The notes under the pieces were generated by a model. The model saw only the letters and a program-made list of their open reading frames with translations, was not told where the DNA came from and searched no databases. A program made the translations under genes and the position numbers. Below are positions 56,720 to 60,932 of a stretch of DNA of 64,000 nucleotides, piece by piece; the first letter of the stretch is position 1; every line of letters starts with the position of its first letter. Source of the DNA: Candidatus Avelusimicrobium pullarium (GTDB lineage Bacteria > Elusimicrobiota > Elusimicrobia > Elusimicrobiales > Elusimicrobiaceae). Location of the stretch: contig CALUTQ010000002.1 in NCBI GenBank assembly GCA_944323745.1, positions 62,001 to 126,000 of the forward strand. The letters are read 5' to 3'.

Positions 56720-57136
56720 TTATACGTTTTTTAATATTTTTTCCAGCAGACATTCCAAGTGTGTCAGTTCTTCTTTCGTAAAATGCTTATAAAGCATTTG
56801 ATTTAACTCTTTGGATATGGCATCAAAAACAGGCTTAAATTTTATGCCTTTTTTCGCTAGACTGACATAAGTAACCCGACTATCGGCGGTCGATTTTTCC
56901 CTTTTTACAAAACCTATGTTTTCCAGCTTATCAATCAGTACGGTAACCGTTGCTTTTGTTTTACCTATTTTTTCCGCCAGGTCCTGCATCGTCACTTTTT
57001 TATGTTGATACAAAACAACCAAAATATCGCCGTGGGAAGGAGCCAAATTGGCATAATTATACTCTTTCAATTTGCCAATAATAAAAGCATTCCCTGCACT
57101 TGAAATCTTGGATATAAGCGATAGAATTTGGTACAT
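56720..57136 (-). CDS. MarR-family transcriptional regulator
   Basis: A 138-residue winged-helix repressor: LAPSHGDILVVLYQHKKVTMQDLAEKIGKTKATVTVLIDKLENIGFVKREKST with the conserved wing (DSRVTYVSLAKKG), flanked by helical dimerisation segments. ATG 57136 is set by the family start, and the transcript start predicted from the promoter falls at or next to it, so it is nearly leaderless. Autoregulated through the operator just upstream. Confidence 0.93.
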   Translation of the reverse strand: MYQILSLISKISSAGNAFIIGKLKEYNYANLAPSHGDILVVLYQHKKVTMQDLAEKIGKTKATVTVLIDKLENIGFVKREKSTADSRVTYVSLAKKGIKFKPVFDAISKELNQMLYKHFTKEELTHLECLLEKILKNV

Positions 57137-57143
57137 ATGTTTT

Positions 57144-57172
57144 ATTATAGTTAGATGTCTAACTATTGTCAA
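57144..57172 (-). promoter_or_regulatory. MarR promoter and operator
   Basis: On the minus strand TTGACA (57172-57167), 17 bases, TATAAT (57149-57144), both hexamers perfect. A perfect 8-2-8 inverted repeat TAGTTAGA-TG-TCTAACTA (57148-57165) covers the spacer and the edge of the -10, so bound MarR would block RNA polymerase. Confidence 0.85.
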
Positions 57173-57286
57173 TTATACGCCGCTTTCCGCAAAAGGGCCG
57201 TTTTTTTAACATTTATTCTTGGTTTGGCGGGTTTATAAGAAAAAATAAAAGAGCCCCAAATAGAGCAACGAAAGTTCAGAAACAGC

Positions 57287-57323
57287 AAAATCCCCGTCGG
57301 GCACAAAGCCTAACGGGGATTTT
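57287..57323 (+). terminator. Intrinsic terminator-like hairpin before the island
   Basis: AAAATCCCCGT (57287-57297) and ACGGGGATTTT (57313-57323), exact inverses. It precedes the left attachment-site copy. Confidence 0.7.
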
Positions 57324-57343
57324 GATAAGAAACTTAAAACTAC

Positions 57344-57356
57344 AATACGGAGAGGG
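57344..57356. repeat. Left attachment-site copy of the tRNA-Ser island
   Basis: AATACGGAGAGGG, identical to 59727-59739, where it covers the 3' end of tRNA-Ser(GCT). The bases on either side differ, so the identical core is 13 bases. Confidence 0.7.
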
Positions 57357-57362
57357 TAGTTT

Positions 57363-57536
57363 AGACAGCAATATGCTGGAATCTTTAAAAATCTTGATCT
57401 TCAGGTGGATGCTAAAAACTATAAAGAGCTATTAGCTTTTTTTGAAGAAGATCTAGTGGCTTATAGCCATATACCCAAATCTATCAACGCTCGCGGCGTG
57501 GCAGTGTATGGCAAAGGGCCCCGAGTCCTTTTGTGA
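57363..57536 (+). pseudogene. C-terminal fragment of an unknown protein
   Basis: Open for 57 codons, ending at TGA 57536, with protein-like composition (FKNLDLQVDAKNYKELLAFF, then EEDLVAYSHIPKSINARG) but no start codon; it begins just after the attachment core and a stop in the same frame. I do not recognise it. It looks like the end of a gene cut by formation of the island edge. Confidence 0.4.
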
Positions 57537-57674
57537 TATTTCTTTTTTGGCTTTGTGGCATACATTCGCTCATATTCTTTTTTGTAATACTTTTTGAGTA
57601 TAATTCGCGCCATAGACCAAATTCCCCATACAAAAGTAATAGAGCCATTATAAGATTAGAAAAGGAAACTTAAT

Positions 57675-57854
57675 TTAGAACTTTTTCTTCTGAGGGTGAG
57701 AGTTTGTAATGAGACGGGGTGTCTTTTTCAAAGCATATCCTGGTATTGTGAAAACTGCCCTATCCCCCATTAATTCCCCAAAATCCACGTTGATTTGCTT
57801 GCACTCTTTGCCCTTGTCTCATACCGATTTTTCATCTATGAACACCACTGTCAT
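57675..57854 (-). pseudogene. Broken copy of a small island gene
   Basis: From ATG 57854 the frame reads MTVVFIDEKSV, an in-frame TGA, then DKGKECKQINVDFGELMGD and RAVFTIPGYALKKTPRLI to TAA 57675. The middle (DEKSV, KGKECKQI-V-FG-LM) is the same as the start of the small gene at 59369. The TGA stands where the other copy has Cys (TGC), so one base change inactivated this copy. The family is unknown. Confidence 0.6.
57767..57840. repeat. Direct repeat, left copy
   Basis: 74 bases aligned without gaps to 59261-59334, with eight differences. The two copies flank the hydrolase gene in the same orientation. Confidence 0.85.
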
Positions 57855-57949
57855 ACCATACTTTTTAAATATGCTAAATATGTAAAAACATAAAATTTGT
57901 TATAATGAAAATGCATTGGTGAAAATTAGTTAGAAGGGCTAGGGTAAGT

Positions 57950-59287
57950 ATGAAAAAAATTATTATAAGCTGTTTGTTTATCTTATCTTGTTGCGTAGGT
58001 TTGAATGCTCAATCTACAGGAGAGATTTTAACCTTTCCCCCTAGTCCGGAAAAGGGGTTTTCCTGGGGCTATGCACTTTACCTGCCCAAAACTATGAATA
58101 CCTCCCACAAATTACCCATTCTGCTGATTATGACCGATTGCGGAGTAACAGACTCTATTCAAGAAACTGAAGAAAAAACGCTGTTTCGTTTGCGCAATGA
58201 ACTCAGCGAATATCCTATTGCCGATGAACTGGGTGTGCCTTTAGTCATACCTATCGTGCAACGACCGGAAGATTTCTATACGCATGCGTTAAGCCGTGCC
58301 GTATTTATATCCCAAGAAGAACCATTTAAGCGGCTGGATTTACAAGTATTAAATATACTCCGGGATGCGCGTCAACAATTAAGTAAACGCCATATTCATA
58401 CAAAAAATAAATTTTTAGTAACGGGATTTTCAGCAGCGGGCGTATTTGCCTGGCGTTGGACTATGCTTCATCCCGAGTCCGTCCTCGCATTAGCCACCGG
58501 CGGAGCATTATACCATATGCTACCGATTGAAGAATTAAACGGAGAGCGTTTAATCTATCCCGTTGGGGTGGCTGATATGCAAGAATATACCGGGAAAAAA
58601 TTTAATAAAAAAGCGTGGGCAAAAATTCCGATTTTATCTACCAATGGAGAAATGGACGATAACGACACTTTCCTATATGAAGAGTGTTTTGCAGAAAAAG
58701 TAGAACGCCCCGTTCTTCAAAAAGTGTTGCCCGGAAAAGATATTTTTGAACGCCGGGCGCAATCCTTGCAATTATTAGCTAATCTGGCCCCCAATGTACA
58801 AACACATTTATATCCTTGGCTGGGGCATGAACCTGTTACCCAAGATGTCATCGCATTTTTTAGACAATACGTCCCTACTCCGGCATTTCAACTGACAGAT
58901 ACGTCTGATCGGAAACCGGATTTTCCCGTCAATATCGTTAAAGCTATGTGGGGAAACGATCCACAGATTCCCGAAATATACAAACAATGGATAGCAGGGA
59001 ATGATTTAGTATTACTAACCTCCGCTTCGCATCCATATTGGGTATACAATCAATATGCCGAAATAACTATCTCCTGCAACGAAGAAAAAAAGACTCAGCC
59101 CCAAAAGCTTGGAAGTTTTTCCGATGGTGAAAAAACCTTTATATCATTTAAATTTACCCCAAGTGACTGGGAAAATTTAATAAAGAAAAAAGGATGTAAA
59201 TTTAGCATTCATTCTTTACATCCGCAATTTTTACATATCCCAGATACACTAACTGTTCCTCCATTAAATTCCCAAAATTTACGCTGA
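57950..59287 (+). CDS. Secreted alpha/beta-hydrolase
   Basis: A 445-residue exported protein with signal peptide (IIISCLFILSCCVGLNAQ). The hydrolase fold is visible: LPILLIMTDCG, nucleophile elbow VTGFSAAGVFAWRWTML (Ser161), and YPWLGHEPVTQDVIAFF with the catalytic His near residue 295. The C-terminal 130 residues form a separate beta-rich domain ending LTVPPLNSQNLR. It resembles secreted PHB-depolymerase/feruloyl-esterase-like enzymes. The promoter is an extended -10 (TGT-TATAAT at 57901-57906). Lower GC than neighbours, inside the tRNA-Ser island, so probably acquired. Its end overlaps the minus-strand repeat. Confidence 0.8.
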   Translation: MKKIIISCLFILSCCVGLNAQSTGEILTFPPSPEKGFSWGYALYLPKTMNTSHKLPILLIMTDCGVTDSIQETEEKTLFRLRNELSEYPIADELGVPLVIPIVQRPEDFYTHALSRAVFISQEEPFKRLDLQVLNILRDARQQLSKRHIHTKNKFLVTGFSAAGVFAWRWTMLHPESVLALATGGALYHMLPIEELNGERLIYPVGVADMQEYTGKKFNKKAWAKIPILSTNGEMDDNDTFLYEECFAEKVERPVLQKVLPGKDIFERRAQSLQLLANLAPNVQTHLYPWLGHEPVTQDVIAFFRQYVPTPAFQLTDTSDRKPDFPVNIVKAMWGNDPQIPEIYKQWIAGNDLVLLTSASHPYWVYNQYAEITISCNEEKKTQPQKLGSFSDGEKTFISFKFTPSDWENLIKKKGCKFSIHSLHPQFLHIPDTLTVPPLNSQNLR

Positions 59288-59369
59288 TTTGCTTGCACTC
59301 TTTGCCCTCGTCGCATACCGATTTTTCGTCTATGCCCGCCAGTTGTATAGTATGATTGGGTAGTTTCAT
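59202..59369 (-). CDS. Small ORF of an island gene family
   Basis: ATG 59369 begins MKLPNHTIQLAGIDEKSVCD and EGKECKQISVNFGNLME follows, the same family as the broken copy at 57675-57854; the C-terminus here diverges (QLVYLGYVKIADVKNEC). It overlaps the last 86 bases of the hydrolase gene antisense, where the repeat copy begins at 59261. The intact ancestor would have been about 70 residues. No known domain. A fusion of the gene start to foreign sequence is likely, so it may be non-functional. Confidence 0.45.
   Translation of the reverse strand: MKLPNHTIQLAGIDEKSVCDEGKECKQISVNFGNLMEEQLVYLGYVKIADVKNEC
59261..59334. repeat. Direct repeat, right copy
   Basis: The partner of 57767-57840: 74 aligned bases with eight differences; overlaps the end of the hydrolase gene and the small ORF. 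Confidence 0.85.
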
Positions 59370-59382
59370 AACGGTGCGGTAT

Positions 59383-59562
59383 AATGTCGGCGCTAAAGAA
59401 AAAGACGCTTCTCTTTATGCCGGACACGCAGATACACAGGTCACGGAAGAACATTATTTAGCCCCTTCCATCTTGCGCAAGAAAGCCCAAAGTGAAAAAA
59501 TTACCAATATGGAAAAGGTAAAAAAATATGTTTCCAAACTGCCTGGGACACTAAAAAAATAG
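59383..59562 (+). pseudogene. C-terminal remnant of a tyrosine recombinase (integrase)
   Basis: The fragment reads NVGAKEKDASLYAGHADTQV, then TEEHYLAPSI, which is the end of a phage-type integrase with the conserved GH-x-T-x-Y box; it includes the catalytic Tyr in HYL. No upstream catalytic domain is present. It is followed by a terminator and lies about 165 bases from tRNA-Ser, pointing to it, as expected for an integrase next to its attachment site. Confidence 0.8.
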
Positions 59563-59576
59563 TGTCCCCTGTTTTT
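59545..59576 (+). terminator. Terminator of the integrase remnant
   Basis: GGGACACT (59545-59552) and AGTGTCCC (59561-59568), exact inverses spanning the stop codon, then CTGTTTTT. Confidence 0.75.
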
Positions 59577-59653
59577 AAATCAAACTCTGTCCCCTGTTTT
59601 TGTCCCCAGTTTTGACCTTATTTTTTCTTAATTTACCTTAACATACCTTAACA
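59563..59653. repeat. Short direct repeats near the attachment site
   Basis: TGTCCCCTGTTTTT occurs at 59563-59576 and 59588-59601. TACCTTAACA occurs as an exact tandem at 59634-59643 and 59644-59653. Repeats of this kind beside an integrase often are arm-type binding sites. Confidence 0.5.
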
Positions 59654-59683
59654 CATCTTACTATGTTTCCCGACGTAAAAAAG

Positions 59684-59718
59684 GCAAAAAAGAGCCCGCT
59701 TCGTCTAAGAAACGGGCT
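59684..59718 (-). terminator. Terminator of tRNA-Ser
   Basis: AGCCCG (59693-59698) and CGGGCT (59713-59718); on the minus strand followed by TCTTTTTT. Confidence 0.75.
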
Positions 59719-59726
59719 ATCGTCTA

Positions 59727-59739
59727 AATACGGAGAGGG
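59727..59739. repeat. Right attachment-site copy in tRNA-Ser
   Basis: AATACGGAGAGGG, identical to 57344-57356. The last nine bases form the 3' acceptor end of the tRNA, the usual target of integrases. Confidence 0.7.
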
Positions 59740-59821
59740 AGGGATTCGAACCCTCGATACGGGAATTAACCCGTATAACGGTTTAGCAAACCGCCGCTTT
59801 CGGCCTCTCAGCCACCTCTCC
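59731..59821 (-). tRNA. tRNA-Ser (anticodon GCT)
   Basis: A complete class II cloverleaf on the minus strand: acceptor GGAGAGG/CCTCTCC with discriminator G, D-arm GCTGAGAGGCCGAAAGC, anticodon loop TTGCTAA (GCT, reading AGC/AGU), long variable arm TATACGGGTTAATTCCCGTA and T-arm GAGGG-TTCGAAT-CCCTC. CCA is not encoded. The neighbouring island has kept the 3' end intact. Confidence 0.95.
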
Positions 59822-59975
59822 CAAATAGTTACAGTCAGCGGAACAATATTATTATAACAAATAATGACGAAGATTTCTTTATTTTTAGTCGGCAAATAAG
59901 CCTTATGCACATCGTACTGCAGACGGGAAAAGACTTACGCAGACGCCCGCAAGCTTTCAAGCCGGACCTGCCGCG

Positions 59976-60932
59976 TTAGAAGCTTTGTTTCAGCCCTTCG
60001 TCCAGTGACGTAAAACGCTGTCCGCTGAGTTTATGCCACTTTTTGCCGCTGCAAATCCAATGGCCGTTTATGGAGGCTTCTTTTACCTTATCGTAGTTTA
60101 AAGCCGGTTGCGCCCCCGTCATACGCGCGGCCAAAGAATAAAGCCACGCGGCCGTTTTGAGCACCCACAGCGGCGCATTGGGCATAAACGGTTTTTTTAC
60201 GCCCATTGCCCGGGCCATTTTTTCAATAAACTCTGGCCAGGGATATGTTTTTTCTTCACAGATAAAAAAGGTCTCTCCCGCTGTGCCTTCCGTTTTGGGA
60301 ATAAGTACTAGGGCGCGCACCAAATCGTCCACATACACAAAGCTGAACAAGCCTTTGCCGGACGTATTGACCATCAGCCCGCGTTTAACCCAAGCGGCAA
60401 TTTTGGACACGCCCGAATCGTTTTTGCCATACACAATAGGCGGGCGGACAATCGTCCACTTAACGGACGGTTTTAACGTATGTACGGCTTTTTCCCCCGC
60501 CAGTTTGGTAATGCCGTAGTCCGAAATCGGCTGCGGAGTCATATCTTCGGTGCGGGGATGCGCGGCGTCTTGGGCAAAGCCGCTGGCCGCCAAACTGGAA
60601 ACATAAATAAAATGTTCCAAATCCGGCGTTAAATTGGCTGCGCAAACCATATTTTGCGTAGCACGGGTGTTGGCTTTAGCAAAATCTTCCTGATTATAAC
60701 CGAAAATGGCCGCCGCCAAATGGTACACCATACAGCAGCCCTCCATCGCTTTTTGCAGAGAGGCGCAATCTTGGTAGTCTGCCTTTACGACAGACACATC
60801 TGGATTAACGGGCTTATGTTTGCTTGCGTGGCGCGACACAATGCGCACTTTATAGCCTTCTTTAAGCAACGCATCCGTCAGACGCTTGCCGATAAAACCG
60901 TTTCCTCCGGTCACCAATACTGTTTTTTTCAT
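59976..60932 (-). CDS. NAD-dependent epimerase/dehydratase (extended SDR)
   Basis: A 318-residue cytosolic SDR protein. Rossmann motif VTGGNGFIGKRLTDALLKEG, then YHLAAAIFGYNQEDF, the catalytic pair in PISDYGITKLAGEKAV (YxxxK), and RPPIVYGKNDSG. It fits the sterol/sugar-epimerase-like group; substrate not determinable. It lies nine bases after the preceding minus-strand gene and is the last of the ExbBD-TonB unit, probably co-transcribed. Confidence 0.9.
   Translation of the reverse strand: MKKTVLVTGGNGFIGKRLTDALLKEGYKVRIVSRHASKHKPVNPDVSVVKADYQDCASLQKAMEGCCMVYHLAAAIFGYNQEDFAKANTRATQNMVCAANLTPDLEHFIYVSSLAASGFAQDAAHPRTEDMTPQPISDYGITKLAGEKAVHTLKPSVKWTIVRPPIVYGKNDSGVSKIAAWVKRGLMVNTSGKGLFSFVYVDDLVRALVLIPKTEGTAGETFFICEEKTYPWPEFIEKMARAMGVKKPFMPNAPLWVLKTAAWLYSLAARMTGAQPALNYDKVKEASINGHWICSGKKWHKLSGQRFTSLDEGLKQSF

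Follow-up and report, generated by a model that had tools for sequence, protein, structure and literature searches.

Two truncated integrase tails flank a hydrolase gene in a likely decayed composite island at tRNA-Ser(GCT) in an Elusimicrobiaceae bacterium

Why should a hydrolase gene beside a tRNA gene be flanked by two copies of a short coding fragment? The window, a 64,000-nucleotide (64 kb) stretch of the genome of Candidatus Avelusimicrobium pullarium (G000), contains a direct repeat of 85 nt, its copies at 57763-57847 and 59257-59341 lying 1,494 nt apart and agreeing at 73 positions. The 74-base repeat with eight differences described in a first-pass annotation is present, its blocks beginning inside the longer repeat at 57767 and 59261. 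Within the window, the next best ungapped match to the left copy is 41/85, and the 22-base core of the repeat, at up to 3 mismatches, has 2 matches compared with 0 in 100 shuffles. A protein search of the whole 1.6-Mb genome (E up to 10) matched the repeat-encoded protein only at these two places. As the annotation held, the repeat is a duplicated coding fragment, degraded in its left copy by an in-frame TGA, and the right copy is fused in antisense to the hydrolase, as its open frame (59202-59369, minus strand) overlaps the 3' end of that gene. The features of the locus are as follows.

57272-57343, unstranded: flank B, the DNA beyond the distal att-like copy, matching G021 and partly G010
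57344-57356, unstranded: distal att-like site AATACGGAGAGGG, 13 bp repeating without mismatch the tRNA-Ser 3' end and the 4 bp that follow it
57375-57458, plus strand: lipoprotein-like gene fragment, its 28 residues sharing 75% identity with a stretch of a 138-aa frame in G035
57765-57881, minus strand: left integrase tail, a pseudogene with an in-frame TGA, its frame disrupted in G016 and G065 too
57950-59287, plus strand: predicted secreted alpha/beta hydrolase of 445 aa, residues 1-436 of which align with relatives
59256-59396, minus strand: right integrase tail, by homology the last ~48 residues of a tail-family tyrosine recombinase
59395-59562, plus strand: remaining 3' part (55 residues) of a further tyrosine recombinase, type A, oriented toward the tRNA gene
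59563-59726, unstranded: arm between the type-A fragment and the tRNA gene, with repeats and a terminator-like hairpin seen by eye
59727-59739, unstranded: tRNA-proximal att-like site (tRNA-Ser 3' end plus 4 bp)
59731-59821, minus strand: tRNA-Ser(GCT), the putative integration target

Judged by homology, the repeat is no small gene of its own but codes for the C-terminal ~45 residues of an integrase (tyrosine recombinase). When the right-copy frame was searched against 61 genomes (our own and 60 relatives; E up to 1), six matched: our own, four sister species in which the frames measure 376-429 aa, and, weakly (E 0.94), a genome of another genus. Two of the four sister-species frames give proteins of 385 and 393 aa, in each of which the match takes up the last ~45 residues, and the 385-aa protein (L003) carries the Phage_integrase domain (PF00589) at 8.9e-30. 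The intact integrases in turn align to the window at 59396-59256 for the right copy (E 3e-10) and 57881-57765 for the left (E 2e-5), the next best match after the two tails having an E of 0.024. Across 149 genomes of the order (E up to 0.001), 18 matching places were found in 17 genomes. Twelve lie in frames of 367-578 aa, five of them aligned to an integrase (G003, G015, G018, G030, G073) and seven judged by frame length only. The remaining six comprise three tail copies belonging to the island itself (two in G000, one in G065), two ends of frameshifted integrases (G062, G069), and a short weak piece in G115. The catalytic domain that would hold the Arg, His, and Tyr residues is absent from the window, where the last ~37 and ~48 residues remain of the tail family and 55 of type A. 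In the left copy, reading continues beyond the usual integrase end.

The first-pass annotation had instead proposed an ancestral gene of about 70 residues, perhaps a mobile-element accessory gene. The mobile-element link holds; the gene, however, appears to have been an integrase of ~390 residues with the repeat as its C-terminal tail. A small accessory gene is now scarcely credible: the open frame on the minus strand speaks for it, but two thirds of the matching places (12/18) are in long frames, no intact stand-alone homologue occurs among the 18 places or elsewhere in the 149 genomes, in each of the three carrier species the left copy is broken by a stop or frameshift, and integrase homology continues upstream of the presumed start codon. 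Thus MKLPNHTIQLAG, once read as a good N-terminus of the right copy, is internal, the homology starting upstream at 59396. Neither are MKLPNHTIQLAG and RAVFTIPGYALKK the two ends of a single protein, as RAVFTIPGYALKK lies beyond the usual integrase stop. The integrase identification disposes of a spurious family of small genes. An untranslated element or RNA family was likewise rejected, since in 57000-60000 the tRNA alone reaches an Rfam gathering score and the repeat copies show no unusual fold against shuffles (z 0.2 and 0.2 on the minus strand, -0.8 and -1.0 on the plus). Searches of phage records and viral contigs found no relatives of the tail protein, PHROGs gave nothing significant (best E 0.25-0.34), and the island DNA had no relatives among plasmids. 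Among named records, the closest to carry the integrase are two MAGs of Elusimicrobiaceae, one from yak rumen by its title and one bearing a RUG isolate name.

The two 13-bp att-like copies lie 2,374 nt (~2.4 kb) apart. In the 19.7 kb downstream of the tRNA gene, 13 bp is the longest repeat of its 3' end, compared with 10 bp in a reverse-complement control. The genus yielded 21 loci, of which G004 and G014 were left out of the repeat count and 18 were counted along with G000. Besides G000, the downstream repeat is 10 bp in G007 and 9 bp in G003, while the other 16 loci have none of at least 9 bp, four of the 18 (G002, G008, G010, G015) having fewer than 200 bases downstream of the tRNA gene. 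Most relatives therefore lack a repeat of this kind, and at 13 bp the match is a short one, which counts against the island reading. In G014 another copy of the tRNA 3' end can be seen by eye, followed by MarR and SnoaL genes like those beside the distal copy in the window. Positions 57272-57356 match the tRNA-Ser end and downstream DNA of G021 at 78% over 86 positions, and 57312-57356 match those of G010 at 93% over 45. In G016 the island homology stops at 57347, in the att core, which is degenerate there and is followed by the tRNA-proximal arm; in G065 the distal copy was not found. On the tRNA side, three TGTCCCC(T/A)GTTTT repeats at 59563-59614, noted by eye, are candidate arm-type sites. 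A palindrome, CAGCAATATGCTG, at 57366-57378 just inside the left att copy, is also beside the att core in G016 and G062 and might serve as a site for a recombinase or an accessory protein.

In G010, G062, and G067, short stretches of 34-44 bp that match the att core and left end at 86-88% are followed by other cargo. Defence-like genes lie behind these matches in G062 (L149 9317-16251), G010 (L173 6994-8883), and G067 (L172 10084-15406): a type IIG/PglX-like methyltransferase with a DrmD/HKD-Snf2-like helicase, a type I restriction subunit, and LeoA-like dynamins. In G016 (L093 9169-12340) a 541-aa serine recombinase with Resolvase and Recombinase Pfam domains is directly behind tRNA-Ser, and in G002 (L065) the tRNA is immediately followed by an almost identical sequence.

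An intact relative of the type-A fragment, 392 aa long, is found in G023 and likewise points toward the tRNA gene; the G023 contig begins with tRNA-Ser 3'-end sequence ~190 bp from the integrase stop. A type-A relative (L107) matches PF00589 at 2.5e-7. The intact tail-family integrases of G018 and G030 are in islands at tRNA-Arg(GCG) and not at tRNA-Ser, suggesting that the element from which the tails came may have had another target. The genome of the window has a probable second island of its own at tRNA-Arg(GCG): this tRNA gene and a copy of its 3' end (G000:C1:794242 and 815941; L127, L131) are 21.7 kb apart, with an integrase-like gene at 811082-812032 between them.

The ends of tail-family integrases might themselves be recombination sites for cargo exchange, so that the two tails would flank an excisable hydrolase cassette. 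Long homology between G003 and G015 does end at the integrase end, beyond which there is only a 33-bp match, a Fic-like gene directly behind the G018 integrase is absent in G030 with shared DNA resuming after it, and homology of the hydrolase region in the window also stops at the tail boundary. We nonetheless regard such a site as very improbable, given that G018 and G030 have a copy of the tRNA-Arg 3' end, the usual kind of att site, 1.0-1.3 kb beyond the integrase, that the repeats lack an unusual fold, and that the tails are only 86% alike in G000 with the left one disrupted in all three species. An integron cassette was rejected as well: an intact relative of the integrase scores 77 bits against TIGR02249, where the cut-off is 265, and the repeat copies have no attC-like fold. 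The cargo right behind intact tail-family integrases (L088-L091) varies, being a Fic gene in G003 (the copy for which the Fic domain was shown), a similar gene in G018, and other DNA in G015. In G030 a zeta-toxin-like gene is on the opposite strand, slightly farther behind the integrase.

Between the two att copies, the list of open reading frames shows a single gene of normal length, the hydrolase, and no intact integration or transfer gene. The last nine residues of the hydrolase, PPLNSQNLR, are integrase-tail DNA read in antisense, alignment with relatives extending through residue 436 or 437. Full-length relatives stop four residues past an LT motif (LK in one), while the G065 hydrolase, by eye, has the same ending as the window with one change and the same stop. 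Assignment to the alpha/beta hydrolases draws on distant matches. PF00561 gives 13.5 bits (cut-off 25.8), NCBIfam gives no match, and weak matches to esterases in the PDB are 3doh (E 0.0055; profile 0.0031) and 3wyd (E 0.0018). Ser161 in GFSAAG, Asp236/Asp239, and His293 are invariant in 13 sequences, consistent with a putative Ser-Asp-His catalytic triad, and secretion is predicted from the N-terminus as read by eye. That alignment took 12 full-length sequences from the 22 other places found, leaving out the full-length G012 sequence, the contig-cut G016 and G022 sequences, and seven matching over roughly the first 309 residues alone. The G016 (G016:C8, L092) and G022 (G022:C79, L021) contigs end at most a few bases from the same codon (~147), immediately before GFSAAG. 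The C-terminal half of the gene was not found in either assembly, G016 having only a 36% paralogue; one idea is an insertion at the conserved motif. Tandem pairs of divergent hydrolase paralogues occur in G027 (L094 8108-10776) and G019 (L095 839-3518).

How did the island come to be in these genomes? It was found in three of the 149 genomes of the order, namely G000, G065, and G016. A DNA search across the order, scoring two candidate places in each genome, gave matches in 16 genomes; outside the three carriers it matched only hydrolase sequence, the tRNA-proximal arm, a tail, or another short piece. In G065, 57685-59825 (2.1 kb) aligns at 88.9% with the order of tail, hydrolase, tail, integrase fragment, and tRNA gene kept. 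In G016, 57347-58389 aligns at 89% up to the contig end, the right half missing there. The G065 hydrolase is 94.4% identical to that of the window in amino acids. By the NG86 method, dN is 0.026, dS 0.200, and dN/dS 0.13 against G065 (445 codons), and dN is 0.006, dS 0.133, and dN/dS about 0.045 against G016 (145 codons). For neighbouring genes, dS is 0.82-3.07 against G065 and 0.64-1.86 against G016 (seven genes each), many of these values being near saturation and an eighth gene, an aminotransferase, being unmatched in the compared stretches. Decayed or non-coding segments are also 82-92% identical between species (the tails, 57848-57949, the left end between G000 and G016 at 89%, and the type-A fragment). 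Exceptions between G000 and G065 are the tRNA-proximal arm (73.9%, with 49 gapped positions), 59342-59396 (70.9%), and part of the left end (77.5% over 89 positions).

As the hydrolase and decayed segments are far less diverged than the backbone, the island core would be much younger than the chromosomes, and the low hydrolase dS suggests that the island probably moved horizontally between species. Vertical inheritance of an island that merely evolves slowly is consistent with the tRNA site being shared by G000 and G065, the carriers assembled on the tRNA side. It is nevertheless very unlikely, because hydrolase dS is about 4 to 15 times below that of the neighbours, none of the 14 neighbouring-gene comparisons gives a dS near 0.15, the decayed parts are comparably young, and only 3 of 149 genomes have the island. 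Its borders appear to have been exchanged separately, with mixed histories, as the G000 tRNA-proximal arm is closer to that of G088 (95% over 59554-59826), a genome with no hydrolase match, than to that of G065. The truncated layout is common to G000 and G065, so the simplest order puts truncation first, the integrases apparently having been cut back before the island moved.

Given the above, the locus very probably carries the 3' end of a tyrosine recombinase, truncated twice, in a composite island formed by repeated integration at tRNA-Ser(GCT) and subsequent deletion that spared a selected hydrolase gene. Related elements would have integrated site-specifically at the 3' end of the tRNA gene and stacked, two of them leaving the two tails. 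The hydrolase may have come in as cargo adjoining an integrase 3' end. Deletion of the integrase bodies and of nearly everything else would then have left the hydrolase, presumably retained by purifying selection. Without an integrase of its own, the island may spread via its att sites using the integrase of another element, in the manner of a cis-mobilizable element (CIME), or by homologous recombination. The low dS of the hydrolase relative to the backbone in two species pairs points to possible mobilisation by another element.

The step in which two related elements stacked is the one that could differ. In a possible but less favoured account, which otherwise leaves the composite-island explanation as it is, the tails were duplicated when a hydrolase cassette entered a single integrase gene, by single crossover of a circle or by local tandem duplication. 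The tails share orientation and 3' boundary (57763/59257), and those of G000 are as alike (86%) as the orthologous tails of G000 and G065 (84% left, 87% right). However, the upstream limits of integrase homology differ (59396 and 57881), and the G065 tails are only 76% alike. These divergences suggest that the copies date from roughly the time when the island spread. Excision or amplification of the hydrolase through the repeat, as once proposed, finds no support: the longest identical run between the G000 copies is 24 nt, and the arrangement kept in G065, along with the age of the tails, argues against either event being frequent. A carrier with a single tail was not seen, both sides being visible only in G000 and G065.

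Extending the composite-island explanation to the family is more doubtful. An integrase-less island with one selected hydrolase may keep moving among Elusimicrobiaceae into tRNA-Ser(GCT) with borrowed integrases, integrase 3' ends serving as recurrent docking points for cargo, though we consider this rather unlikely in full. The site itself looks like a hot spot in these uncultured gut bacteria, where cargo may outlive its own integrases and still pass between species. With defence-like genes there in sister species, it is a practical spot to seek variable cargo in a poorly known group.

In literature searches on Elusimicrobiaceae integrases and on Elusimicrobia genomic islands and tRNA genes, no description of this island was found. 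The kind of element is known, while the instance is new: the island fits a CIME-like remnant of tandem accretion. The window tails are C-terminal ends of the tyrosine recombinase/phage integrase family (PF00589), the catalytic domain of which is gone. According to PMC5704250, CIMEs arise by decay of an ICE or IME followed by tandem accretion. Similarly, the window lacks any complete gene for integration or transfer between the sites, att-like copies are present at both ends, the 3' end of a tRNA gene is the apparent target, and relatives have other integrated DNA at the same gene. A difference is that the distal att site was not found in G065. According to PMC3146451, 15 Dehalococcoides islands at ssrA lack an integration module and were suggested to be possibly cis-mobilizable. 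Those islands likewise hold cargo between direct repeats of an RNA gene 3' end and are stacked with other islands. The enzymes differ, a serine recombinase acting at ssrA in Dehalococcoides, whereas the remnants at tRNA-Ser in the window are of tyrosine recombinases.
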